A program made the position numbers and the translations under genes. Shown here piece after piece: positions 26,394-62,877 of a DNA stretch of 63,133 nucleotides (position 1 is the first letter of the stretch; each line of letters starts with the position of its first letter). The DNA is taken from IMG/VR virus record IMGVR_UViG_3300013133_000004, positions 1-63,133 of that record, one strand, 5' to 3'. The notes below the pieces were generated by a model, which saw nothing but the letters and a program-made list of their open reading frames with translations, made no database searches and was not told the DNA's origin. This DNA is from a virus.

Positions 26394-27442
26394 TCAAGAC
26401 AGAGGTTACGCAGGAATGTATCCCGGTCGAACTCGATGACGGGATGAAGTACCAAATCACGACGACTGTGGTTGTTCCGGGAGAGCTCCCGGACGTTTAC
26501 CTTTTCGTGCACGACGTGATCGATCTAGTGGACCCCAAGCAAGATGTTTTCGTGCGGGTAGCTAATCCCTATGATCTTGAAAACATCGTCACTACCCGCG
26601 CGGCGGCTATCACCAACGGAACCAAGAGGTACCGGGCCAACGCATTTGTAGTTAGGTACACAGACGTAGAGTTGGCAGTTCAGGCGAAGCAGGCTGTTCT
26701 TCAGCGTGTCGATACCGCAGTAAACACATGGTACGTGTTCCGGTCCGAGTTTGAGGTTCCTGCTCCGCCTCCGCCATTGCCGATTCTGTACCGGCCGGAG
26801 ACTGATGAGGAATATCTCCAGACTCTCGTTAACGCGTACAAGGCGGCGATAGAAGCCCGAGTCGCGGCCGAGGCAGATGCTGTAACCGCACAGGCTGCGG
26901 TTACGACCGCAGAGGCAGAGGCGGCTGCCGCTGCGGCCATGGTTCTCATCTACGAGAAGGAGACCACCTTCTGTCAGACGGCGAGGACTACGTACTGGTT
27001 GAGTCCTTTGGGTTTGCTGAGCGGTGTATCGAATCTGTCCAGCAAGTCTCAACAGTTCTTCAACGACTCGAAGACGATTTACAACACGTACGGAGCGTGT
27101 GGAACGTATCCTGCGTGTTCTGCTCTTCCAGGCACATGGCAGTACGATCTCCACGCAAAACTCCTGGTTATGGAGGCGGCGCTTACAGGTACAGGCGGAT
27201 GGTCTACGAGCGAACCGTACATGGGTCTCATGGATACGGTTCTCGCCTCGTTCTGTAGTGCGGCGACAGTCGGGTACACAACGGCGGTCAATACCAAGAG
27301 CTCCAAGGATCTGGCAGTGGCCAATGCCCAGACAGCAAAAGAAAAGGCGGACGCGAGTGTCGCGACCGCCCAAGCAAACGAAGATGCAGCTCTCGCTGCC
27401 ATTATGACTGCGTGTCCAACGTTCGATATCTCCTCAATATGA
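26390..27442 (+). CDS. hypothetical protein with duplicated N-terminal domain and Ala-rich coiled coil
   Basis: 350 aa, starting in an ATGA overlap with its paralogue. Residues 17-125 form the domain shared with the previous gene. A Pro-rich linker (APPPPPLP) and an Ala/Glu/Thr-rich helix (about 150-195, e.g. AEADAVTAQAAVTTAEAEA) follow, then a Cys-bearing segment (CQTARTTYWL ... CGTYPACSALPG) and a second Ala-rich helix near the C-terminus. The helices look like a fibrous or trimeric stalk. Its end overlaps the convergent 440-aa gene by 9 bp. A virion whisker or adaptor is conceivable; I cannot confirm it. Confidence 0.5.
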   Translation: MIKTEVTQECIPVELDDGMKYQITTTVVVPGELPDVYLFVHDVIDLVDPKQDVFVRVANPYDLENIVTTRAAAITNGTKRYRANAFVVRYTDVELAVQAKQAVLQRVDTAVNTWYVFRSEFEVPAPPPPLPILYRPETDEEYLQTLVNAYKAAIEARVAAEADAVTAQAAVTTAEAEAAAAAAMVLIYEKETTFCQTARTTYWLSPLGLLSGVSNLSSKSQQFFNDSKTIYNTYGACGTYPACSALPGTWQYDLHAKLLVMEAALTGTGGWSTSEPYMGLMDTVLASFCSAATVGYTTAVNTKSSKDLAVANAQTAKEKADASVATAQANEDAALAAIMTACPTFDISSI

Positions 27443-28756
27443 CTTGATGGTGTCGTACGGAGTTCTATTTACTGAACTTAAAGGACTGACTGTTTTCGAC
27501 ACGAAGGGGATCCTTCCGTGTGAGCGGTAAACATCAGTCAAGTCTTTGACGTAGAAGGACCAGGACGCGATTTCGTTTGACCGCTTGTAGTAGAAATACT
27601 GCCGGAAGCCGTCGTCTTCGTAGCGGGTGTAGCGTGCGGCGTAGGACGTCTTGTGCCAACCACTTCCCATTGTCGGACTTTGTGAAAAGCTGGACACGAC
27701 AGCCAACAACGCTTTCAGGCGTTTTGTGATCCGCAGCTTTTCCGGGTAACTTGTGCCGTATCCGCATTTCTGGATGATTTCCTGCGCCTGCTTGTACGTC
27801 ATTGGGCGCTCTTCTCCGGTTCGCATATTGCCCAGCATGTATTGCAGTCCGTCACGGTACCGGAAAGTCAGGTAGTGCTCTTTCCCTTGGAAGTAACTCG
27901 ATAGCCGTCCGGAGTTCTTTAACAAGTAAGCCAGTTGCGCATTCGTGTACGGGATGTTGCACACTTCCAGGATATGTTCGTAGTATGCGTCTTCGGACTT
28001 GTCGTAGGCTCCTTCGCACCATCTGGAACGATCGTTTGGGCAGCAGTGATTTACCAGACAGATTCCGCACACGTTTTTTCTAAACCGGTCCTTTTGTACC
28101 CGGGACTGTGCTGCCTCTTTTCTGGCTTCTATGTTCCGGTCTATTGCATCGAAATTTACAGACCCGACGGCGAGTCTCCTAGACGAGAAGCTGGTCTGGC
28201 CCGCGGTGTATATGGGGCTGATGAAGGTGTATCCTTCGAGCTGCATCTTGAGATGTTTCCAGCGCTCCAGTGTATCCATTATTTCTGAAGGTACGCGTTG
28301 TGTCTTTTGTGCTTGGTATATCTTCTTTATCTCGCAATGTAGTTCCGGATTTTCAACTTCGTTGAGACATTCGCTACACCCCAAGATCAGTTTGTGCGGC
28401 AGGGTACACGCGTCCTGTATGGTTTTCGGGTACATGAGTTTGTACTCCCCGTCTATGACGGCCGGGACTCGCTGTGCTTTCCCTTCTGTGAAACCCGGAG
28501 ACATGATGTTGATGTCGTCTGTGATGGTATATCCCTGTTGAGTATTGAAGCCGAAACGCAACACAGGAAAGAACGCATCGAGTGCGGGCGACTGTAGCAG
28601 TCTCTTGGCGTTTTCCGCCTTCAGCGTGTCGCGGAACAGGAAGTACAGGTTGCGCAGGGTGTCCATGCCGTTTCCTCTGTGCCTCCGCCAGGTTTCACGA
28701 CCGCTGAAGGCGTACGTGAATATCTTGTCGGGAATTTCGGCAGGTATATCAGCCAT
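27434..28756 (-). CDS. Cys-rich protein of the reverse transcriptase operon, unknown
   Basis: 440 aa; the ATG at 28756 overlaps the RT gene by 8 bp and has GGGAG upstream. Two Cys/His clusters are visible: LGCSECLNEVENPELHC (about 145-161) and CGICLVNHCCPNDRSRWC (about 243-260), both plausible zinc knuckles. The flanks are helical and basic (ARKEAAQSRVQKDRFRKN). The C-terminal part is aromatic and Tyr/Arg-rich (ARYTRYEDDGFRQYFYYKR). The family is unrecognised. Its tight linkage to the RT, and zinc clusters shared with both operon neighbours, suggest a nucleic-acid-binding partner or effector of the RT. Confidence 0.6.
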   Translation of the reverse strand: MADIPAEIPDKIFTYAFSGRETWRRHRGNGMDTLRNLYFLFRDTLKAENAKRLLQSPALDAFFPVLRFGFNTQQGYTITDDINIMSPGFTEGKAQRVPAVIDGEYKLMYPKTIQDACTLPHKLILGCSECLNEVENPELHCEIKKIYQAQKTQRVPSEIMDTLERWKHLKMQLEGYTFISPIYTAGQTSFSSRRLAVGSVNFDAIDRNIEARKEAAQSRVQKDRFRKNVCGICLVNHCCPNDRSRWCEGAYDKSEDAYYEHILEVCNIPYTNAQLAYLLKNSGRLSSYFQGKEHYLTFRYRDGLQYMLGNMRTGEERPMTYKQAQEIIQKCGYGTSYPEKLRITKRLKALLAVVSSFSQSPTMGSGWHKTSYAARYTRYEDDGFRQYFYYKRSNEIASWSFYVKDLTDVYRSHGRIPFVSKTVSPLSSVNRTPYDTIKSY

Positions 28757-29879
28757 GGAGTTCTTTCTCCCACGCTGGTTTGGCTTCCTGGAAGGCGACC
28801 ATCAGCTTGTTTCCCTTTTCGGGGTTGATGAACTGCACGAACCCTATTCGGCCTTGGAGGTAATCCATGAGAGCCTGCGGGGTTTTCTTACCGGCCTTCT
28901 TGTGCTGAGAACTCAAGCCGTGCCGGCTTGCATTGGTAATGATTGCACGTAACTTCCGGTATTCTTCCTTCGGGATGTTCAACTTTTTGTTGATGACTAT
29001 CCCGAGTACGCGTTTCCGAAAGTAGCTGTGCGGCGTACGTACCTTCTTTGCGTTTACGCGGTAACCGCATTCCCGGATGATTCCCCGCAGCCGGTACACG
29101 ATTGCAGTTCGGTCTTCCTGGGACAGGAGTTTCCCGCAGGTGATGATGAGGTCATCCGAGTACCGCGTGTAGCACCAGTTCCATGGCGGCGTCAGTCCTG
29201 CGGTCAGGTCCAGTTCTGCGAGGTAGCTCTTTATGGCGCCGTCTAGGCGCCGATCCGCTACCAGGTTGCAGATGGCTCCAGATGCGGGGCTGCCTTGAGG
29301 TATCACGTCTTTTTTCCGGGTTCCATCCGGACCTATGGACACTGTAGTCAAGTTGGAGAGCAGGTCGGATACGTAGTGGCTGTATCCTATTTCCTTGAAG
29401 CAGTTGCGTACCCAGGACTTCTTGGTTGAATGAAAGAAGTCCTTGAGGTCGATCTTGATGAACGTTCCGTACTTGGGACAGTCGTGCTTTTTCGGGGATA
29501 CAGCATTCGGAAAACTGTCGCAGATAGGACAAGGCCGCAGATGTTGCATGACTGCGGTTCGGATTGACCTCTGTTTACGGTATGCCGAAACGTGATCCCC
29601 CAGAGGTTCCTGCAACGGATTCAAGAGCCGCTTATTCAGGAGTTTCAAGGCACGCTTCATACTCCCCTGTGGGGCATGGATGATCCGGGTTTTGTTGTGT
29701 GCCTTGGGAATGGTCCACGACTTGTAGAGGGTGTTCCGGTGCAGTATCAAATGCCAGAGAGTCTTCGTCCGGTACTTCAGCAGACTGGCTAACGTGTAGT
29801 CGTCTACTACGGCTGGATTGGGGAGTCCGTCCGGGACGCTGATTTTCGTGACTGATGATTTTCCGAATCCAACAGGCAT
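28749..29879 (-). CDS. retron-type reverse transcriptase with zinc-knuckle insertion
   Basis: 376 aa. RT motifs appear in order: SIRTAV region, IKIDLKDFFHS with Asp144 (motif 3 type), IPQGSPASGAICNLV (193-207), the catalytic YSDD box at 240-243 (CYTRYSDDLI), GYRVNAKKV (282-290) and RVLGIVINKK (290-299), equivalent to the VTG/VN block of retron RTs. A C-terminal LQGRIGFVQFINPE matches the retron-type thumb. Between the first motifs sits an insertion CPICDSFPNAVSPKKHDCPKY (117-136) with C-x2-C...H-x-C spacing, which I would not expect in typical retron RTs. Group II-intron maturase and DGR types are less fitting. The ATG at 29879 overlaps the previous gene by 73 bp. The enzyme would make cDNA from an unknown template. 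Confidence 0.85.
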   Translation of the reverse strand: MPVGFGKSSVTKISVPDGLPNPAVVDDYTLASLLKYRTKTLWHLILHRNTLYKSWTIPKAHNKTRIIHAPQGSMKRALKLLNKRLLNPLQEPLGDHVSAYRKQRSIRTAVMQHLRPCPICDSFPNAVSPKKHDCPKYGTFIKIDLKDFFHSTKKSWVRNCFKEIGYSHYVSDLLSNLTTVSIGPDGTRKKDVIPQGSPASGAICNLVADRRLDGAIKSYLAELDLTAGLTPPWNWCYTRYSDDLIITCGKLLSQEDRTAIVYRLRGIIRECGYRVNAKKVRTPHSYFRKRVLGIVINKKLNIPKEEYRKLRAIITNASRHGLSSQHKKAGKKTPQALMDYLQGRIGFVQFINPEKGNKLMVAFQEAKPAWEKELHG

Positions 29880-50901: not shown

Positions 50902-53900
50902 ATGTCGTCACCTCTCTGGATGGACCCTTACGCTTACGATGTCAGTAAGGGGGGCTCCCATCCCAGTCCGTATTTCACGTATAGTCAAGTCTACAGCCCC
51001 AAGCGACTGAAAGAGCTTTTCAAGTGGTGCGAGTTTCTCTTCTACAACAGCGCCCAGATCTACGCGGCACTCCGGAAGTTCGGGGAATACCCGATCGGGG
51101 AGTTCAACTACGAAACTAACAATTCGGCGCTCAAGACGCAACACAAGTTCCTCATCGAGAATGTTATCCGGGGGCGCGAGCTGCTTATCAAGGCAACGCT
51201 CGACAAGTACGTCTACGGTAACTGCTTTATGTCCATGTACCAACCGTTCATCCGGTATTTGAAGTGCCCGGAGTGTGGAATCCTGACGAACATCCAGAAC
51301 ATCAAGTACAAGTTCAACGTGAAGAACTTGTCGTTCACGTACACCTGTATGTCGTGCAAGAAGAAGGTCATCGCACACGAGAAGCACATCGAAGACCGGA
51401 AGGCGCTCATCAGCAAGAGGATCAACTTTATCCGGTGGGACCCCAAGCTGATGGACATTGACCACAACCGGATGACAGGGGAGTCGATCTACTACTACAC
51501 GATCCCGCGAGAGGATATCCAGAAGGTCAACAACGGACACAAGTCGCTCATCGACTCGATGCCCATCGGATTCCTGAAGGCCATCAAGGAAGAGAAGCAG
51601 TTCCGCTTCGCGCCTGATGCAATCTTCCACATGAAGGTCGGCGGACCGGCCGGCATCAACCCGCAATGGGGACTGCCGCCACTCATTTCGGCGCTACACC
51701 TCTTCCACTACGCGCAGATTCTTCGCAAGGCCAACGAGTGTGTGAGCCCTGGTACGTTGATTGAAACGTCCACGGGGTTGATGCCCGCGGACGAGGTACC
51801 GGTTGGTGCGCTCGTGCGCACACACCAGGGGCGTTGGCAGCTGGTCACCGAGAAGTGGTACCGTGACGCGCGAGAAGAAGAAGTCGGAGTCCGAATCGAG
51901 GTTGCCAGTGTTCGGGAGCTCGGACAGGTCTACTCTCCGAAGCACCCGATCATGGTTCTGCGGCGCGCGGGGGAAGCTGAAGAGGCGTTGTCCGCCCCCG
52001 GCGGGAAGCACTATGGTGATTCCAAGCAACCCCCGGGGAGAATACTGAAATATGCTCATCTCTACGAAGAGTGCTACTGTCCGGCCGAGCAAGTCGATAT
52101 TGGGGACTACATCCTATACCCGAGGACGCTTCCCGCGATTCCGCAGACGGTCGATGTTGCCAAACATACTGGGCTCGTGGCGACAGACGATTACGTGTAC
52201 GCAATGTGCAAAGAGGAAACCGCCCAGGCGTTCGAGGCTGTTGGGCGGGGAGAGCATGTCCAGCATGACAGCGCCGGGAAAGTAGCGAAGCGACTAGCTG
52301 TAAAGGGGGAAACCCCCAAGCGCTTCCCTGCACACCTGGAGATGACCTCCGATCTAGCCTATATCCTTGGGTGGTATGCAGGGGACGGAAGCTGCAACCA
52401 GAGGAACGTCATCTTTTCATTAGGAGTGGATGACAACGCCCAGCCGTTGATTGACGCCGTTCAGAAAGTCTTTGGGCTAACGCCCTCCTCGTCCGTCCGG
52501 GACAGCTTGCACACGCTGAATATTGGGAGTGTTTTTGCGCGGAAGCTCATCAAGGGGCTAATCCCGGGTACTGCTCGCCATAAACAGGCACCGCGGGAAA
52601 TTATCGATGCTCCTGACGCCATCAAGATTGCCTATTTGCGTGGTCTTTGGGATGCGGATGGAAATGTGCGCAAGCCTGGAGACTCTGCGCAGGCAGCGCT
52701 GGCTACTTCGAGTCTCAACCAGGCGTATGACGTTTATAGAATGTTGTTACATTTGGGGTGTATCGCGAGTTTGAGAACTCGTGAGACATCCGACGGCGAG
52801 ATCAACGGTCGGAGGATTCCGGGCGGGAGGCACCATCAGGTAATCGTGACGGGTCCGTCTCGTCAACGTTTGTTGGCGCTGTTCCAGGGAGAGCAGGTAC
52901 CTGAGATCATGGTTGAGACCGGAAAGAGCGGTTTCTTCTGGAAGCAATATTTTGCCGTACGTGTTTCATTCGTCGAGTCCGTACACGAAGAGCAGTATAT
53001 TGATTTCAAGGTGGCAGAAGACGAGACTTTCAGCACACTCTCGGTTTGTTGCCACAATTCAATTGCGCTCGACCATCTTGTCCCGTTTAGAGTTCTTCAT
53101 CCGGCGCAGTCGTCGAACAACGCCGACCCGTTGACGACGATCAGTCTGGACCGCTGGATACAGGAGATGCAGACGCACCTCAAGCTCCAGCGCAAGGACC
53201 CGCTGCACATGATGTTCGCGCCGATTCCTGTTGGCGTGACGCAGATTGGCGGTCAGGGGCGTGCGCTCCTTACTCTCGGAGAGCAGCAGGAAGCGGAGAA
53301 GAACATCGTCGCGGCTCTCGGTATCCCGCTGGAGTTCCTCTACGGTGGTCTGACAAAGAGCGGCATGGAAGCCACCTTGCGTCTCATTGAGAATCAGCTC
53401 CAGTCACACATCAATGACCTCAAGGACATGCTCCAGTGGATCGATGATAGCTGTGCGAAGTTCCTTGGCTGGGAACGTATCCGGATCGATCTGGCGGACT
53501 TCACGCTGTCGGAAGACAACACGAAGAAGCAGATCCTTCTCCAGCTCTTCATGGCAGGAGAGCAGCAAGGTGCGCCCATCATCTCCAAGACGACCATCGC
53601 GGAAATCAACGATATCGACCTTCGTCAAGAGACCATGCGCATCAAACAGGAAACTCTCGACGCCGTCCGCAATCAGGATGTGCTGCAAAAAGAAATCACG
53701 AAGATCCAGAACAATGTAGCGACGCAGGTTCAGCAAGAATCTCAGGTAGGTCCACAGCAGTACAACCAGCAGCAGGTTATCGCCCAGGCCGACCAGATCG
53801 TACAGCAGATCATGCAGATGGACCCGAGCATGCGGAAGAGCCAACTCCACGCACTCGAAACGGAGGATTACGTTCTCTATTCCGTTGTCATTCAGCGTCT

Positions 53901-53949
53901 CGAACAGGCGCAGACCAGCAACAAGGCCATGGCCACTTCGGGGATGTAG
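50902..53949 (+). CDS. portal protein interrupted by an intein
   Basis: 1015 aa precursor, ribosome site AAAGGAG. Residues 1-279 and 720-1015 would give a 575-aa mature portal after intein removal. The N-part contains a zinc-like CPECGILTN...CMSCKKK and helical/beta parts. The C-part (SIALDHLVPFRVLHPAQ ... LGIPLEFLYGGLTKSGMEATL ... MLQWIDDSCAKFLGWERI) is typical of portal wings and stem, where 'lgip.ell.g' is conserved. The C-terminus is Gln-rich helical (QQYNQQQVIAQADQIVQQI). It forms the dodecameric DNA gate of the head. The intein sits just before the conserved 'SIALDHLVPFRVL' stretch. Confidence 0.85.
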   Translation: MSSPLWMDPYAYDVSKGGSHPSPYFTYSQVYSPKRLKELFKWCEFLFYNSAQIYAALRKFGEYPIGEFNYETNNSALKTQHKFLIENVIRGRELLIKATLDKYVYGNCFMSMYQPFIRYLKCPECGILTNIQNIKYKFNVKNLSFTYTCMSCKKKVIAHEKHIEDRKALISKRINFIRWDPKLMDIDHNRMTGESIYYYTIPREDIQKVNNGHKSLIDSMPIGFLKAIKEEKQFRFAPDAIFHMKVGGPAGINPQWGLPPLISALHLFHYAQILRKANECVSPGTLIETSTGLMPADEVPVGALVRTHQGRWQLVTEKWYRDAREEEVGVRIEVASVRELGQVYSPKHPIMVLRRAGEAEEALSAPGGKHYGDSKQPPGRILKYAHLYEECYCPAEQVDIGDYILYPRTLPAIPQTVDVAKHTGLVATDDYVYAMCKEETAQAFEAVGRGEHVQHDSAGKVAKRLAVKGETPKRFPAHLEMTSDLAYILGWYAGDGSCNQRNVIFSLGVDDNAQPLIDAVQKVFGLTPSSSVRDSLHTLNIGSVFARKLIKGLIPGTARHKQAPREIIDAPDAIKIAYLRGLWDADGNVRKPGDSAQAALATSSLNQAYDVYRMLLHLGCIASLRTRETSDGEINGRRIPGGRHHQVIVTGPSRQRLLALFQGEQVPEIMVETGKSGFFWKQYFAVRVSFVESVHEEQYIDFKVAEDETFSTLSVCCHNSIALDHLVPFRVLHPAQSSNNADPLTTISLDRWIQEMQTHLKLQRKDPLHMMFAPIPVGVTQIGGQGRALLTLGEQQEAEKNIVAALGIPLEFLYGGLTKSGMEATLRLIENQLQSHINDLKDMLQWIDDSCAKFLGWERIRIDLADFTLSEDNTKKQILLQLFMAGEQQGAPIISKTTIAEINDIDLRQETMRIKQETLDAVRNQDVLQKEITKIQNNVATQVQQESQVGPQQYNQQQVIAQADQIVQQIMQMDPSMRKSQLHALETEDYVLYSVVIQRLEQAQTSNKAMATSGM
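51739..53058 (+). mobile_element. intein with LAGLIDADG homing endonuclease (in portal gene)
   Basis: 440 codons, residues 280-719 of the precursor. It begins with Cys280 (CVSPGTLIET, block A) and ends HN (Asn719), followed by extein Ser720. Both splice junction types fit the classical Cys...His-Asn/Ser pattern. Block B shows SPKHPIMV. Two LAGLIDADG motifs are visible: LAYILGWYAGDGS and IAYLRGLWDADGN. Block F/G is YFAVRVSFVESVHEEQ...YIDFKV...LSVCCHN. The endonuclease looks intact. DNA here has more A/T at third positions than flanking portal DNA, which fits later arrival. It should self-excise from the portal precursor. Confidence 0.9.
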
Positions 53950-54649: not shown

Positions 54650-57600
54650 ATGGCTGAATTGACCTCCATTCTCATGAGCCCCCAAGACCGAAGAGACCGG
54701 ATTCGCAGGCGGGTACTCGAAGGTCTTCAAGAATCGTTCCCGATCAAGTCCCGCAACAAGACGGTCGAGCTGTCCGACCTTCATTACGAGCAGCGGGACT
54801 TCAGTCCTTCAGAACAGAAGGAGGCCATCCTCAAAGGAGACACGCTTTCCGAGGTGGTAAGGGGGACGGTCATCCTGAAGGACGCGGACGGCAAGGTCAT
54901 CGACAAGACCAAGAACTTCACGCTTGCCAGAGTACCTTGGTTCACGACTCGACACACTCTGGTCGTCGGGGGAAATGAATACTCAGTCTCGAACATGGTC
55001 CGGCCTAAGCCGGGAGTGTACGCACGCAAGCGCTCGAACGGAATTCTGGAGGCGCAGTTCAACGTCGTCGGCGGCAGCAACTTCAACGTGAGCATGGACC
55101 CTGAGAAGGGTATCCCGCACCTGGAGTACGGCTCGACGAAGATCCCGGTGTACCCGATTCTCCGCAAGGCTGGCATTTCCCACGACCAAATTTCCGCGTT
55201 GTGGGGAAAGAAGATGGCGGACCATAACCACACATCTACTTTCAAGAAGTCAGACCAAACCGTTGAGAAGCTCTACGGGAAGATGGTGCCGGAGTACGCA
55301 AGAAAGAAGGACGCGTCTTCGGACGAGATGATGAAGGAGATTGTGACGCGGTACGGGTTGGCCAAGATGGATCCTGAAGTCACGTCCCGCACACTCGGAA
55401 AAGCATACGGGACTGTGACCCCGCATAGCATTCTTGACGCCTCGGGAAAGATTCTCCGCATCTTCCGGCAGGACGCCGAAGTGGATGACCGGGACAACCT
55501 CGACTTCAAGAGCTTCCACTCTGTCGAGGACTTCTTCAAGGAGCGCATCAAGCTCGATGCGCGTGATATCGCAAGGAAGGCTGCGATCAAGGCTGAGGCT
55601 ACCCCGGAGATCAAGAAGATCATTCCCGCGGGTCCGTTTACGCGGGGACTCATCCAGTTCATCAACTCCTCGCAGCTTGTCTCGGTTCCGACACAGACGA
55701 ACCCGCTGGAGCTTGTCGATTCGGCTATGCGTGTCACGTCTCTCGGGGAAGGCGGCATCTCTACGGAGAGGGCTATCCCGATGGAGGCTCGACAAACGCA
55801 CGTTACGCAGATCGGGGCTCTCGACCCGATCCGAACTCCGGAATCGTTCAGGGCCGGTATCGATATCCGGGCGTCCATGCGGGCTATGACCGACGAGCGC
55901 GGAAACCTGCACGTCCCGGTTTACGACGTAAAGAGCAAGAAGAATACCTACATCCGGGCCGGAGAACTCCAGTCGTCGGTAGTGGCGTTTCCCCACCAGG
56001 AGCTGAAGGGTACCGTAGACGCGTTGGTTGGTGGTGTGGTTCGACAGATCCCGGCCTCGCAGGTCCGCTACCAGATACCGCACTCGTCCGTGCTTTATAG
56101 TCCGACAACGAACCTGCTCCCGTTCCTGGAGTCGTCACAAGGCAACCGCGCCATCATGGGGGCGAAGCACCAGACGCAGGCGCTTTCTCTCATCGAGCGC
56201 GAGGAGCCTTACGTACAGGTTCGTTCGCAGACGGGTAAATCGTTCGAGAAGTTGATGGGTAACGTCATCAACCCTGTGGCGCCGGTGGCTGGAACCGTGG
56301 CGAAGATCGATAAGGATTTTATCTATATTCGTCCGGACAAGATCAAGCTTGGGGCAACAGGAGATGCCGCGCTCGTCAAGATCCCGTACGAGACGAATTT
56401 TCCCCTGGCGGCGAAGACGTTCCTCCACCACGACATCAAAGTGAAGGCGGGGGACAAGGTTTCCGCAGGACAACACCTCGGGGATTCCAACTTCACGAGG
56501 AACGGCACGCTGGCGCTCGGGAAGAACCTGAGCGTAGCGTACATGCCGTACTACGGCTACAACACGAATGACGCCGTCATCATCAGTGAGGCCGCGGCGA
56601 AGAAGCTCACCTCCGAGCGCATGTACAAGATCATCATCCCCCGGGATCCTGACCTCTCGTTCAACAAGGACAAGCACCAGGTCTATTACGGCAACAACTA
56701 CTTTAAGGAGCAGTACAAGAACGTAGACGGGGAAGGCATCATCAAGCCTGGGATGACAATACATCCCGGGGACCCCATGATCTTCAGCCTGAGGAAGACG
56801 CAACTCACGTCCGATGACGTCATGCTCGGACGGCTGCACAAGTCCCTGGCACGTCCGTACCGGGACAGTACACATACGTGGGAGCATGACCATCCTGGTG
56901 AAGTCATCGACGTAGTGAAGACTGCGAAAAGAATCTCGGTCACGGTTCGTACGAAAGAACCAATGATGATCGGCGACAAGCTGAGCGGTCGATACGGGAA
57001 CAAGGGTGTTGTTTCCCTCATCCTGCCGGATGACCACATGGTCACGGATGAGGCGGGAAAGCCTATCGACGTTATCATGACCTCCGCAGGTGTGGTTTCA
57101 CGTATCAACCCGAGTCAGGTTATCGAGACCGCCGTAGGGAAGGTTGCGGAGAAAACAGGAAAGCCGATTCTCGTCGACAACTTTACCGGCAAGAACAACG
57201 TTCAGTGGGTCAAGAAGCTGCTCAAGGATAACGGACTCAAAGACAAAGAGACCGTAACCGACCCGACTACAGGGAAGAAGATACCCGGAGTATTCGTCGG
57301 TCGTCAGTACGTCTTCAAGCTCTTCAAGTCCACGGATACCAACTACAGTGCTCGTGGCGTGGACACTTACGACGTAAACCAGCAGCCCACCAAAGGCGGG
57401 GCACAAAGCGCGAAGGCTATCGGCAAGATGGAGTTTGACGCGCTGTTGGGCCATAACGCACGCAACGTTCTTTTGGAATCGGCAACCATCAAGAGCCAGA
57501 AGAATGACGAGTTCTGGCGAGCTCTACAGTTGGGGTATCCCACCCCGCCGGCAAAGGCGGCGTTTGCCAGCGACAAGTTTCTCAACATGCTTGTCGGTGC

Positions 57601-59008
57601 CGGGGTTCATGTTCACCGAGACAGCTCTCGCATTTCACTGTCTCCGCTCACTGACGGAGACGTTTTGCAGATGTCCGCCGGGGAGATCAAGGAGCCGACC
57701 CTTGTTCGTGCCAAGGATCTGCGGCCGGAAACAGGAGGACTCTTCGATCCCGTCACTACCGGAGGCTTGTCCGGACAGAAGTGGTCGCACATCACACTGG
57801 CCGAGCCGATTGTGCATCCCGTCTTCCGGGACCCTGTAAGGCGGCTTCTCGGGATGAACGGTCCCCAACTGGATAAGGCCATCGCCGACAAGGGCGGTGC
57901 TTGGATACAGGGGGAACTGAAGAAGATCGATCTCGACAAGAAAGAGAAAGAACTTCTTGAGACTATGAGGGGCAAGAAAGCCGACCAGCTCGACAACCAG
58001 CTCAAGCAGGTAAAGTACATACGTGCTCTCAAGGCCCAGAAGCTCACCCCGGACAAGGCATACGTGATATCGCATGTTCCGGTAATCCCCCCGGCTTATC
58101 GTCCGGTTCTTCCGGGACGTGGCGGGTCTGAGCTGATGTACGCCGATGTCAATCCCCTGTACCGGGATCTGGTTTACGTGAACAACCAGTTCAAGGAAAT
58201 CAAGGAGTCAGGTGCCGTGCCTGACGAAGAGAAAAACCTCCGTCCGGTTCTTCATGATGCGGTGGGCGCGGTATTCGGTACCGGTGATCCCATTACAACC
58301 AAATCACAGGCGAGAGGGCACAAGGGGTTTCTGACGTACATTGCGGGGGTGTCCAGCCCGAAGTACGGATACTTCCAGTCCAAGCTCATGAAACGTACGC
58401 AAGACGTGGCGGGCCGCGGGACGATCGTCCCAGACCTGACCCTCGGGATGGACGAGGTCGGTATCCCGGATGACATGCTTTGGACTATGTGGGAGAAGTT
58501 CGTCATCAAGAGGCTTGTCGGTCAGGGTTACAGTGCGATAGACGCCCAGAAAATGGTCAAGGACAAGCACCCGGCCGCGAAGGAAGCGCTCATGCGCGAG
58601 ACGCGGGAGCGCCCGGTGATGTTGAACCGAGCACCGACACTGCACCGCTTTAACGTTATCGCGTCCTACCCTCGACCCGTTCCCGGCAAGACAATCCGCA
58701 TCAATCCCTTCATGGAGAAGGCGATGAACGCCGACTATGACGGGGACACCATGCAGGTCCACTCTCCGGTTAGCATGAAGGCTGTTGATGACGCCAAGTC
58801 CATGACGCTGTCGAACCTGCTCTTCCACGACAAGTCGAAGACCAACCTACTTGTGTTCCCGGAGATGGAAGCTATCATGGGTGTGGATCATGCGACTACC
58901 GTGGACGAGAAGAACACACCCATCAAGTTCAAGACCACGGGAGACGCGGTGAAGGCGTATCACGAGGGTAAGATCAAGCTGGGAACACGGGTGACGATTG
59001 GCAACTGA
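54650..59008 (+). CDS. phage RNA polymerase, fused beta and N-terminal beta' subunits
   Basis: 1452 aa. Beta part: NMVRPKPGVYARK, VINPVAPVAGTVAKI, GYNTNDAVIISE (the GYNxEDA motif), and GDKLSGRYGNKGV (residues about 776-787), followed by PIDVIMTSAGVVSRINPSQ. Beta' part: VAGRGTIVPDLTLGMDEVGIP, RPVMLNRAPTLHRFN, and NADYDGD at residues 1360-1366 (58727-58747), which holds the catalytic Mg-binding aspartates (NADFDGD in cellular enzymes). It ends right after the region behind that loop, before the bridge helix, which is in the gene at 60484. Single-chain fusion of beta with beta'-N is known in some large phages. It would transcribe phage genes. The ATG start has no ribosome site. Confidence 0.88.
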   Translation: MAELTSILMSPQDRRDRIRRRVLEGLQESFPIKSRNKTVELSDLHYEQRDFSPSEQKEAILKGDTLSEVVRGTVILKDADGKVIDKTKNFTLARVPWFTTRHTLVVGGNEYSVSNMVRPKPGVYARKRSNGILEAQFNVVGGSNFNVSMDPEKGIPHLEYGSTKIPVYPILRKAGISHDQISALWGKKMADHNHTSTFKKSDQTVEKLYGKMVPEYARKKDASSDEMMKEIVTRYGLAKMDPEVTSRTLGKAYGTVTPHSILDASGKILRIFRQDAEVDDRDNLDFKSFHSVEDFFKERIKLDARDIARKAAIKAEATPEIKKIIPAGPFTRGLIQFINSSQLVSVPTQTNPLELVDSAMRVTSLGEGGISTERAIPMEARQTHVTQIGALDPIRTPESFRAGIDIRASMRAMTDERGNLHVPVYDVKSKKNTYIRAGELQSSVVAFPHQELKGTVDALVGGVVRQIPASQVRYQIPHSSVLYSPTTNLLPFLESSQGNRAIMGAKHQTQALSLIEREEPYVQVRSQTGKSFEKLMGNVINPVAPVAGTVAKIDKDFIYIRPDKIKLGATGDAALVKIPYETNFPLAAKTFLHHDIKVKAGDKVSAGQHLGDSNFTRNGTLALGKNLSVAYMPYYGYNTNDAVIISEAAAKKLTSERMYKIIIPRDPDLSFNKDKHQVYYGNNYFKEQYKNVDGEGIIKPGMTIHPGDPMIFSLRKTQLTSDDVMLGRLHKSLARPYRDSTHTWEHDHPGEVIDVVKTAKRISVTVRTKEPMMIGDKLSGRYGNKGVVSLILPDDHMVTDEAGKPIDVIMTSAGVVSRINPSQVIETAVGKVAEKTGKPILVDNFTGKNNVQWVKKLLKDNGLKDKETVTDPTTGKKIPGVFVGRQYVFKLFKSTDTNYSARGVDTYDVNQQPTKGGAQSAKAIGKMEFDALLGHNARNVLLESATIKSQKNDEFWRALQLGYPTPPAKAAFASDKFLNMLVGAGVHVHRDSSRISLSPLTDGDVLQMSAGEIKEPTLVRAKDLRPETGGLFDPVTTGGLSGQKWSHITLAEPIVHPVFRDPVRRLLGMNGPQLDKAIADKGGAWIQGELKKIDLDKKEKELLETMRGKKADQLDNQLKQVKYIRALKAQKLTPDKAYVISHVPVIPPAYRPVLPGRGGSELMYADVNPLYRDLVYVNNQFKEIKESGAVPDEEKNLRPVLHDAVGAVFGTGDPITTKSQARGHKGFLTYIAGVSSPKYGYFQSKLMKRTQDVAGRGTIVPDLTLGMDEVGIPDDMLWTMWEKFVIKRLVGQGYSAIDAQKMVKDKHPAAKEALMRETRERPVMLNRAPTLHRFNVIASYPRPVPGKTIRINPFMEKAMNADYDGDTMQVHSPVSMKAVDDAKSMTLSNLLFHDKSKTNLLVFPEMEAIMGVDHATTVDEKNTPIKFKTTGDAVKAYHEGKIKLGTRVTIGN

Positions 59009-60482
59009 AGGGACAGCTAAGATCACGTCTGGACTCGAACTCACGAAAGATGAGGTTCGCCAGTACTACGCTCGTCCCGAGGTTCAACGAAAACTCCTGC
59101 CGTATCTCCGAGGTCATGATCTTGTAGTCGGGCAATCGGCGGGGCCGAATTCCCTCATCTACAAGCGCTACATCAAGGGGGAACCTATCCGGGTCAACTC
59201 TCCCGCGGACCTGGAGTGGTACGGGTCTCGCCGGCATACTGAGTTTCATCCTACTATCGGCACGCGTACAAATGAGCTGTGGGTGGACATCGATTCTGGT
59301 TCTTCCCGGGACCTGTCGTCTGTGAAGACCCTGGTCCCGGAAGTCGAGGATGCTCTTCGGCGAATGCCGCAGGTGAAGAACACCAACATCGCATTTTCGG
59401 GCGGAAGAGGGTTCTACGTTCGGGGTGAATTGGACAAGCAGTACTCGACACACGAGATACGCGAAAAGCTGAAAGCCGCTGTCCGTGGTCTCGCCCAGAA
59501 AAAGGAAGACGTAGTTGTTGATCGTCCTCCAGGAATCGACGAGGTTCGGCTAGACGTATCTACCTTCCACGAAAAAGGGTCGATCCGGGCCCCGCACGCT
59601 CTCCATAGTGAAACAGGGTTCATTTCAATCCCTCTGACACGGGAACAGCTGCACGGGTTCGACCCGATGGTCGATGCGAATCCCAGGAAACTCACCATGA
59701 AGAAGGAATTCGCCCCTGGCATTTCGATGAGTCGTGCAACTCACGACCTACCAGAACTCAAGGATAAGACGTGGACGCTGGCGGTGCAGGCACACAATGC
59801 ACGCAAGGCGGGCATGCATTGGGATCTCCGGTTGGTTGACCCGAATACGACACACGCACATTCGTGGGCGATACCGAAGTCAAAGCTTCCCAGTCCAGGA
59901 GATGCCCCTATTCTTGCGGTACGTACACCCACGCACACGGCGCAGTACGCACTGAATTACGGAGCGAAAGGTCCGAAAGCAATCCACGAAGGTTACGGTA
60001 AGGGCATGGTGGAAATCGTCCACAAAGAGCCGGTTACCGTGCTATCCTCGCAGACGGACAAGGTGAAGTTCGAGAGAACGGTTAACGGACTACCTCAGCA
60101 GTACGTGCTGTTTCAAGCAAAAGGGTCTTCGTGGATGATCAAGAACATCACGAAACCCGCGAAGGAGGCGAGCATGACTCCCTACACCCGTGGCCGTTAC
60201 GCCGCGCTCTTGAAGTTGGGTCTGGCGGATGGTGTTCAGGAGCGACCCTCTACGTTTGAAGTACCCGTACCGATCGAGGCGCATGACGATCAGATGCCCG
60301 CAGGACAGCTCGCCGCAATGATGTCGCAGATGCCAGAAGCGATGACGCATTCCGAAGCGCTGAAGACCAAGGGTGAGAATGTAGAAGGCCACCTGAACCG
60401 GAATACGGTATGGAGCGAGCCTCACCCCATCACGAATGATATGGCGACCGGGCCGTCTCCGGTGATGCCGGGAAGATTCTAG
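58998..60482 (+). CDS. PriS-like primase domain fused to LigD-type 3'-phosphoesterase
   Basis: 494 aa; a TTG start at 58998 overlaps the RNAP gene by 11 bp and no nearby ATG exists in frame, so the start is uncertain. AEP/PriS-type domain at about 40-225: LWVDIDSG (Asp97, Asp99), SGGRGFYVRG (134-143; the expected SGxxGxH His is Tyr140), VRLDVSTF (Asp186) and SIRAPHALHSETGF (195-208), close to the archaeal PriS RxPxSLHxKTG signature. LigD phosphoesterase at about 258-385: MHWDLRLV (His274, Asp276), SWAIPKSKLPSPGD, VRTPTHTAQYAL (His313), EGYGKGMVEI. The C-terminal 110 residues contain YTRGRYAALLKLGLA (396-410) and a Pro/Met-rich tail. It may prime or repair DNA ends. It sits between the two RNAP genes. 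Confidence 0.7.
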   Translation: MATEGTAKITSGLELTKDEVRQYYARPEVQRKLLPYLRGHDLVVGQSAGPNSLIYKRYIKGEPIRVNSPADLEWYGSRRHTEFHPTIGTRTNELWVDIDSGSSRDLSSVKTLVPEVEDALRRMPQVKNTNIAFSGGRGFYVRGELDKQYSTHEIREKLKAAVRGLAQKKEDVVVDRPPGIDEVRLDVSTFHEKGSIRAPHALHSETGFISIPLTREQLHGFDPMVDANPRKLTMKKEFAPGISMSRATHDLPELKDKTWTLAVQAHNARKAGMHWDLRLVDPNTTHAHSWAIPKSKLPSPGDAPILAVRTPTHTAQYALNYGAKGPKAIHEGYGKGMVEIVHKEPVTVLSSQTDKVKFERTVNGLPQQYVLFQAKGSSWMIKNITKPAKEASMTPYTRGRYAALLKLGLADGVQERPSTFEVPVPIEAHDDQMPAGQLAAMMSQMPEAMTHSEALKTKGENVEGHLNRNTVWSEPHPITNDMATGPSPVMPGRF

Positions 60483-60483
60483 G

Positions 60484-62286
60484 ATGTCTACGACGGACAC
60501 CTTGGGGCGACACCTGGTTAACGCGATTCTTCCGAAGGACTACCAACTGACTGGTCCTACCGGGAAGAAGATGCTGAACCAGTCCATGGCCGTGTTGGCC
60601 AAGAAGGACCCACACCTGTACGTAGACACGGTGGCTAAACTGAAAAAGGTAGGAGACCGTCTCGCTACCTTGGAAGGTTTGTCCATCGGTTTGGACGACA
60701 TCGAACCCGATTACAAAACGCGGGATTCGATCATGAAGCCTCACGCACACAGGTTCAACCAGTCAATAACCGATGACAGGAAGCGCGAGATCGTAGAAGC
60801 AGCACAGACGGATATGCTGAAGCACGTGATGGCACATCCCGGAACGTTGACACAACAAGTCCGAAGCGGCGCCAAGGGAAATCCTGTCCAGTACATGAAG
60901 ATAGTGGGTTCTCCGGTTTATGCTCGTGATGCGCACGGAAAGACCGAGCCTTGGATGATCCACCGGTCTTACGGCGAGGGCTTGAAGTCTTCCGACTACT
61001 GGGTGGCAGGTAGCGAAGCCATCCTCGACACCATCAAATCTTCCGTCTCGGTGTCCGAGCCCGGGGAGCTCTCGAACATCCTCTCCAGCAACATGCGGAA
61101 CATTATTGTGACGGAGGATGATTGCGGGACGTCAAACGGCATTCTGATGTCCGCCGATAATTCCGATGTAGTAGACCGCTTCCTGGCTCGTGACGTTGGG
61201 GGGTTCAAGCGGGGAACACTCATTACCCCCATGGTACAGAGCAAACTGAACAAGGTTCAGAGCAAGATCCTTGTCCGGTCTCCCATGACGTGTGAAGCCG
61301 GTGACGGGGTCTGCCAGAAGTGCCAGGGTCTCGACGAGAAGGGACAGATGCACACGCACGGGACCAACGTAGGTGTGCGTGCCGCGCAAGCCATGTCTGA
61401 ACCCCTGACGCAGTTGGCGCTCAACGCGAAGCACGGTGTGCGTACTGCGAAGGACGACCGCGTTCAAGTTCACGGCCTTCAGGGGGTGCGGCAGATCATT
61501 CAGACCCCGCACCAGTTCATCAACAAGGCGACGCTGGCCGAGCGGGACGGTAAGGTAACAAAGGTGGAGGCCGCCCCTCAAGGCGGGCACTTTGTCTATA
61601 TAGATGATCATCAACACTATATAGTGCCTAACCTCGGGGTTACCGTTACTTCGGGACAAGTAGTCGAGAGGGGAGACGCTATCAGCCAGGGCGTACCCAA
61701 GCCGGATGAAGTTGTGAACCACAAGGGTCTCGCGGCAGGGCGGCTTTACGTCGTAAACACGCTGAAGAACATCTACAAGGACCAAGGACAGGATCTGGAT
61801 TCCCGGCACTTCGAGATTCTCGCTCGTGGTGAAATGAATCACGTGCGCATCCTCGACGACCCGAGCAACAAGTTTCTCAAGGGAGACATTGTCAGCTATA
61901 ACCACCTCAGGAGTGCCTTGAAGTCCGGCGTAAAGGACTTGCCTGTAAACGACGCGCTCGGGGAGACCTTAGGAAAAGAGTACTTCCACTACTCGGCAGG
62001 GATGAGAATCACACCTCCGATGGTAAAGTTTCTCAAGGGCCAAAAAATAGACACAATTACGATTGCCCCGAGAGCCCCGACAGTACAGTTCATCATGAAG
62101 CCGGCAACGACTGCCCCGCTTCTTGACCCGGACTGGATGGCGCGTTTGGCACACCGCGATATCAAGTCGTCGATCTTGCAAGCGGCTCATTTTGGTGAGA
62201 CAACTGATGTACATGGAACGAGCCCTGTACCAGCATACGCACTCAGCAGCCCCGAATTCGGAAAGGGCCCGAAGGGTAGGTACTGA
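60484..62286 (+). CDS. phage RNA polymerase beta' C-terminal part
   Basis: 600 aa. The bridge helix region (QQVRSGAKGNPVQYMKIVG, about 123-141), VTEDDCGTSNGILMSA (about 202-217, equal to the VTEDDCGT element), a zinc site CEAGDGVCQKCQG (about 267-279), and the trigger-loop start RAAQAMSEPLTQLALNAKHG, equal to AAQSIGEPGTQLT in cellular beta' (here M and L replace I and G). The remaining C-terminal half has jaw/clamp-like strands (LARGEMNHVRILDD). It complements the beta/beta'-N protein upstream; together they cover most of the core enzyme. It ends 3 bp before a small hydrophobic gene. Confidence 0.85.
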   Translation: MSTTDTLGRHLVNAILPKDYQLTGPTGKKMLNQSMAVLAKKDPHLYVDTVAKLKKVGDRLATLEGLSIGLDDIEPDYKTRDSIMKPHAHRFNQSITDDRKREIVEAAQTDMLKHVMAHPGTLTQQVRSGAKGNPVQYMKIVGSPVYARDAHGKTEPWMIHRSYGEGLKSSDYWVAGSEAILDTIKSSVSVSEPGELSNILSSNMRNIIVTEDDCGTSNGILMSADNSDVVDRFLARDVGGFKRGTLITPMVQSKLNKVQSKILVRSPMTCEAGDGVCQKCQGLDEKGQMHTHGTNVGVRAAQAMSEPLTQLALNAKHGVRTAKDDRVQVHGLQGVRQIIQTPHQFINKATLAERDGKVTKVEAAPQGGHFVYIDDHQHYIVPNLGVTVTSGQVVERGDAISQGVPKPDEVVNHKGLAAGRLYVVNTLKNIYKDQGQDLDSRHFEILARGEMNHVRILDDPSNKFLKGDIVSYNHLRSALKSGVKDLPVNDALGETLGKEYFHYSAGMRITPPMVKFLKGQKIDTITIAPRAPTVQFIMKPATTAPLLDPDWMARLAHRDIKSSILQAAHFGETTDVHGTSPVPAYALSSPEFGKGPKGRY

Positions 62287-62289
62287 GAG

Positions 62290-62877
62290 ATGAGCGCGAC
62301 GTACGAGCGTGGATACCGACAGGCCCTCTCAACTCTGGGCATGGCGAAGTTCGCGAACCCGGTGGCCAGATGGGTAGCCCAGAAGGCCCCGGGCTTTCTG
62401 ACGAATGTAAGGCATAACATTATCGGCCAACCTATCCGGGCGTACAAGCAGCTCCGTCAGGGAACGCTGTTCGGCAAGGGCGGGCTTGTCCGCTCTGGTC
62501 TCTCGGCTCCGACTTGGGGTAGCAAGCTTCTGCTCTACGGAATCCCGGCGGGCATGGCGGCATATACCGCAGCGGGGGATGATCCGGACAAGTACGAGCA
62601 GATCGGCGGGTTGGCTACGTCCACGCTTGCCGGCGGAGCGGCCTTCGGTCCTCTCGGAATGCTCGGGGCTATGGCCGCAATGCCCCTGGCTTCAAGAGCT
62701 GGGCGGCATCTCGGTGGCGGGGTACGCCATCTGGTAACCGGACAGCCGTCTCAGGCAGAAGGTCCGGCACCGAAACCGATACACGAATTGCCGCCCCCGT
62801 TCGAAGGTCCCAGACCTTATCCGGCAGTCCAGTACGGACAGATGGCGGGGCTGTTGGGGAGTGGAACCGGTGCTTGA
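62290..62877 (+). CDS. hydrophobic, Gly/Ala-rich protein with Y-x-R-G tag, unknown
   Basis: 195 aa starting 3 bp after the RNAP stop. The N-terminus YERGYRQALSTLGMA (residues 5-19) matches YTRGRYAALLKLGLA in the primase-phosphoesterase and the start of the next gene. The middle (about 78-135) has two hydrophobic Gly/Ala stretches (LLLYGIPAGMAAYTAAG; STLAGGAAFGPLGMLGAMAAM) that may be membrane helices. The C-terminus is Pro-rich. No family is recognised. The shared motif suggests a common targeting or processing signal, maybe for packaging in the virion. Confidence 0.5.
   Translation: MSATYERGYRQALSTLGMAKFANPVARWVAQKAPGFLTNVRHNIIGQPIRAYKQLRQGTLFGKGGLVRSGLSAPTWGSKLLLYGIPAGMAAYTAAGDDPDKYEQIGGLATSTLAGGAAFGPLGMLGAMAAMPLASRAGRHLGGGVRHLVTGQPSQAEGPAPKPIHELPPPFEGPRPYPAVQYGQMAGLLGSGTGA

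Follow-up and report, generated by a model that had tools for sequence, protein, structure and literature searches.

The analysed window, 63,133 bases long, represents a fragment of a virus record. It contains two RNA polymerase (RNAP) genes on the plus strand, one coding for a fusion of β to the N-terminal part of β′, which carries the NADYDGD catalytic motif and represents the upstream half of a split β′ (54650–59008), and the other coding for the C-terminal part of β′ (60484–62286). Between them, and on the same strand, lies an ORF with a TTG start codon (58998–60482), which has an 11-base overlap with the ββ′N gene and stops 1 base ahead of the β′C gene. Its 494-aa product, referred to below as Pol-PE, consists of a LigD-type AEP polymerase domain (Pol; residues 15–235, 59040–59702; Pfam, model and alignment), a LigD 3′-phosphoesterase domain (PE; residues 254–386, 59757–60155; Pfam, alignment and model fold match) and a C-terminal tail (residues 387–494, 60156–60479) similar to a stand-alone protein encoded in the same slot of related phages. 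The residues singled out in a preliminary description of this ORF (the VDID sequence, Tyr140 within SGGRGFYVRG, the SIRAPHALHSETG element and His274, Asp276 and His313) are all present. The RNAP genes are preceded by a portal-looking gene that contains an intein (50902–53949, plus strand; LAGLIDADG_3 match with an E value of 2.6e-13 and a weak match to Hint_2).

Viral contigs were scanned with the protein, with the family alignment and with the phage RNAP, and 24 distinct Pol-PE proteins, all from uncultivated phages, were collected. No match was found among 50,697 records of deposited phage genomes, and no cellular homologues were retrieved when prokaryote genomes were scanned, once, with the family alignment.

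The match of the window protein to the LigD_Prim-Pol family (PF21686) is just above the cut-off (27.9 versus 27.4 bits), and relatives score higher (59.3 bits, E value 5.8e-16, for the protein from contig L018 and 46.5 bits for that from L021); the DNA_primase_S score of the L018 protein is just 20.8 bits, with a cut-off of 26.8. Two AlphaFold2 models were built, the first with 10 sequences and the second with 22 (residues 11–390, mean pLDDT of 90.7), and LigD polymerase domains were the best structural match of both. The top Foldseek matches of the Pol part in the PDB were M. tuberculosis LigD Pol (3pky, E value 4e-11, and 2iru), Methanocella NHEJ Pol (5dmu), PrimPolC (6sa0) and 4mky, with E values from 4e-11 to 3e-10. 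Eukaryotic and archaeal PriS proteins share the general AEP fold, and an R-x-P-x-x-L-H/N-x-x-TG stretch of Pol-PE resembles a motif of the primase small subunit, but their structural matches are poorer (E values of about 6e-6 to 1e-4). Thus, the “PriS-like” label given earlier holds for the AEP fold and is otherwise loose, since LigD Pol outscores PriS in both Pfam and Foldseek; as judged from the models, the domain resembles PriS less than it does the LigD polymerase (NHEJ Pol).

Alignment with LigD locates the active-site residues of the Pol domain. Motif I is VDID (residues 96–99, 59283–59294), with Asp97 and Asp99; motif II is SGGRGFY (59397–59417), in which Ser134 is kept; and motif III is marked by Asp186 (59553–59555), which together with the SIRAPHALHSETG element (residues 195–207, 59580–59618; Arg197) spans 59553–59618. 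His84 (59247–59249) pairs in the alignment with the His in the LEVHVPQW motif of LigD, and we take this LigD residue to be His111 of the M. tuberculosis enzyme, a residue that reads the 2′-OH by contact (PMC8656161). In the same enzyme, Ser172, His178 and Arg244 hold the phosphates of the incoming nucleotide (PMC8656161). This triad is incomplete in the window protein, where Ser134 is retained, Tyr140 (codon TAC, 59415–59417) stands in place of His178, the preliminary description being right that a nucleotide-binding His is replaced here, and His203 stands in place of Arg244. By its sequence, the domain is therefore a non-canonical LigD-type polymerase with a reshaped phosphate site.

Tyr140 may alter the choice of substrate, as the preliminary description suggested, but the replacement at motif II is no peculiarity of the window protein, since 11 of the 24 homologues have Tyr at this position and the remaining 13 have His; no other residue occurs. 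In a tree built without column 140, well-supported branches force at least three His/Tyr changes. His was probably the ancestral state, because it is found at motif II in 80/80 actinobacterial LigD proteins examined. The surrounding site hardly varies: Asp97, Asp99, Asp186, Ser134, His84 and Arg197 are invariant in 24/24 homologues, and the position of Arg244 is occupied by Asn in 22 proteins and by His in two. The dN/dS ratio of the AEP part, which was drawn from a few closer pairs since dS was saturated in many others, was 0.03–0.07 in those Tyr pairs that could be measured, compared with 0.08 in the single measurable His pair, and the PE part gave similar values, which points to strong purifying selection in both groups. 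Taken together, the recurrent exchange, the invariant catalytic residues and the purifying selection indicate that the enzyme is maintained and that Tyr140 is one of its recurrent variants, not the mark of a dead enzyme. Tyr140 is probably tolerated and still hydrogen-bonded to the phosphates of the incoming nucleotide.

One can imagine, as the preliminary description did, that the primase part has been reduced to a DNA binder. According to this alternative, the Pol domain of the Tyr forms would serve as a platform for DNA binding and polymerise weakly or not at all, being a relic inside an end-healing enzyme in which only the PE works. Tyr forms lack His178 and the entire family lacks Arg244; the basic residue 137 (Lys or Arg of motif II) is missing in 4/11 Tyr forms, which are related sequences and not independent events, and in 0/13 His forms, the loss being spread over three independent Tyr lineages (C, T and D) and no His lineage. 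This loss hints that phosphate binding is relaxed or altered in the Tyr forms, and together with the replacement of Arg244 it could weaken nucleotide binding. In addition, proteins with a PE and no Pol occupy the same slot in other phages, either alone or fused to a ligase. However, all six invariant residues listed above are also kept in 11/11 Tyr homologues, the AEP part and the PE are under equally strong selection, and residue 140 is restricted to His or Tyr, so that the idea of a mere DNA binder is not supported. We consider a relic polymerase unlikely and prefer a functional one.

Another idea, that a nearby His fills the place of His140, did not hold generally, as His200 is found only in the three sequences of the window clade, and the other Tyr homologues have Tyr200. 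For the same reason, a reciprocal exchange seen in the first five sequences (His80, Tyr140 and His200 versus Tyr80, His140 and Tyr200) failed when the set grew to 24. A scan for covariation partners of residue 140 returned top columns that look like chance, 11 lineages being too few for such a search. Variation at this motif II site has been described in plasmid and mobile-element primases of the PrimHYQ, PrimQH and PolpTN2 groups, which have no appreciable similarity to the LigD AEP (Kazlauskas et al. 2018, PMC5862659); PrimHYQ enzymes most often have His, Gln or Tyr there and retain the acidic motifs (PMC5862659). The motif II His is thus not fixed in either case, but the change in Pol-PE sits within a LigD-type polymerase. 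The repeated His/Tyr exchange in an otherwise invariant active site makes a natural test of the role of this His in AEP polymerases.

The PE domain of the window protein scores slightly below the LigD_N (PF13298) cut-off (30.1 versus 31.1 bits, E value 5.9e-7), which is exceeded by its relatives from L018, L021 and L029 (32.6, 31.9 and 32.1 bits, respectively). The C-terminal part of the model matches the LigD phosphoesterases 3p4h (E value 8e-7) and 3n9b, and the best PDB matches are archaeal and bacterial LigD PE folds. The active site of P. aeruginosa LigD PE is formed by Gln40, His42, His48, Asp50, Arg52, Ser61, His84 and Tyr88 (PMC8656161). Alignment places Gln264, His266, His274, Asp276, Arg278, Ser289, His313 and Tyr317 of Pol-PE at these positions, and the PE residues examined are invariant in 23/23 homologues containing the domain. 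The domain described earlier as an intact-looking phosphoesterase thus retains all eight active-site residues, and its junction to a LigD-type polymerase gives good support to the end-processing enzyme proposed at that time.

As in mycobacterial LigD (Pol-PE-Lig; Rv0938; PF21686 and PF13298), Pol precedes PE in the phage protein, the polymerase has the AEP fold, and the three Asp residues, the motif II Ser, the equivalent of His111 and the full PE active site are present. Unlike it, Pol-PE lacks the ATP-dependent ligase domain, has Tyr at motif II in 11/24 forms and Asn or His, together with the invariant Arg197, instead of Arg244, carries an extra phage-specific tail and sits inside a phage RNAP operon. 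The Pol (5dmu) and PE (5dmp) of Methanocella paludicola are likewise ligase-free and have the same folds, but there they are separate proteins, while in the phage they are fused.

We have looked for the missing partners elsewhere in the contigs. No ligase was found in 15 Pol-PE contigs, though the PF01068 profile also missed the ligase of L030, so that a divergent one could escape. Ku (PF02735) had no match in 29 records, many of which are fragments, and a host Ku is possible; neither Ku nor ligase was found in Pol-PE contigs that include those of 170–179 kb. The phage encodes a DnaG-type Zn-ribbon primase, PolA and a class II ribonucleotide reductase, and since it has its own primase and DNA polymerase, priming of replication by the AEP of Pol-PE seems unlikely. 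Outside this set, a retron-type reverse transcriptase (PADLOC RT_XIII, 1.5e-56; Pfam RVT_1) and an adjacent gene for a 440-aa protein are located on the minus strand of the window (27434–29879); no diversity-generating retroelement repeats were found near the reverse transcriptase.

On balance, and with somewhat more than half of our confidence behind it, we read Pol-PE as a phage ligase-less LigD, C-terminally fused to a small RNAP-cluster protein and predicted to act in 3′-end healing and gap filling. The PE would clean ends that carry a 3′-phosphate or a 3′-ribonucleotide, LigD PE being known to trim the latter (PMC8656161), and the Pol would fill short gaps in phage DNA. LigD Pol favors rNTPs (PMC8656161), and Pol-PE probably shares the preference, because the equivalent of His111 is kept. 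The repaired ends would be sealed by another enzyme, perhaps a host ligase, since neither Ku nor ligase was found in Pol-PE contigs. The tail may, speculatively, tether the protein to RNAP or to the virion.

In all loci that include both RNAP halves, Pol-PE is located between the ββ′N and β′C genes. In relatives L065, L066 and L107, the same slot contains a PE-ligase, whose ligase part keeps the KxDG motif, and in L080, L082, L084 and L087 it contains a PE with neither Pol nor a recognised ligase; no Pol was found elsewhere in the PE-ligase contigs. In L110 and L112, ββ′N and β′C form a single ORF and a PE-ligase is encoded downstream of it, while in L104 a single RNAP ORF is accompanied by neither Pol-PE nor PE-ligase. 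Judging from these three contigs, the phage RNAP is not split throughout the group. With the exception of L030, LigD fragments adjoin or separate the RNAP genes in all loci read. In the literature searched, we came across no account of phage-borne LigD fragments. Tyr140 alone is of modest interest; the ligase-less phage LigD in an RNAP slot, with its alternative LigD fragments, is the more interesting result, and this family of large uncultivated phages offers a handle on a possible phage-run, Ku-less end repair. The PE-ligase of L107 (4240–7074) is fused further to DUF4269 and to a C39 peptidase-like domain.

Relatives that have no Pol-PE encode, immediately upstream of β′C, small stand-alone proteins to which the C-terminal ~105 residues of Pol-PE are homologous (iterated HMM E values down to about 1e-22; hhalign 97.5%). 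In L039 (3281–8998), the Pol and most of the PE are gone, and the tail with a PE remnant remains. Since the tail has stand-alone homologues and is retained in L039, it is the constant element of the slot, onto the N-terminus of which Pol-PE appears to have been fused; the loss in L039 also means that at least one phage can do without Pol-PE. The L039 slot contains several additional genes, including a helicase-like ORF.

The position and the tail suggest an association of Pol-PE with RNAP or the virion. A possible, though in our opinion rather improbable, extension is that Pol-PE travels along with the phage RNAP, packaged in the virion or injected with it, and acts on incoming phage DNA by healing its ends or filling them. 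It would fit a gene cluster that follows a portal-type gene and sits inside the RNAP operon, a tail that is a conserved slot protein with a sequence element recurring at the N-terminus of the next gene's product, and the multisubunit RNAPs known to be packaged in jumbo phage virions (PMC7824862). On the other hand, no Ku was found in the 29 records, and in the cultured relatives with a split RNAP, Salmonella phage Arash and Vibrio phage D69, the slot is filled by other genes. The Ku proteins of phages Omega and Corndog recruit host LigD, and a packaged Pol-PE would serve a comparable aim. A broader and likewise rather improbable scheme is that of a virion-borne transcription-and-end-repair unit, in which LigD fragments that can replace one another (Pol-PE, PE or PE-ligase) would occupy a fixed RNAP-operon slot of large phages, Pol-PE would be held by a shared tail, 3′-end repair of incoming DNA would be coupled to early transcription, and the motif II His/Tyr would be tunable.

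The fixed place between the RNAP halves could also be explained if Pol-PE acted with the phage RNAP on RNA 3′ ends, healing or extending transcripts; LigD PE does resect 3′-ribonucleotides and LigD Pol prefers rNTPs (PMC8656161). The closest folds are, however, DNA-repair enzymes, and no sign of RNA binding was seen in Pol-PE, which makes this reading very improbable, and we retain DNA 3′-end healing and gap filling as the preferred function.

The short element YxxGxxxALxxLG occurs both in the Pol-PE tail and at the N-terminus of the product of the gene after β′C (62290–62877), and similar elements are present in relatives; two matches were obtained versus 0.015 expected from shuffles, for a pattern derived from the same sequences. 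Intein-like insertions were also observed in the RNAP genes of relatives, one inside the catalytic NADYDGD motif (L010, 523–6525) and another in the β part (L016, 3594–9011).
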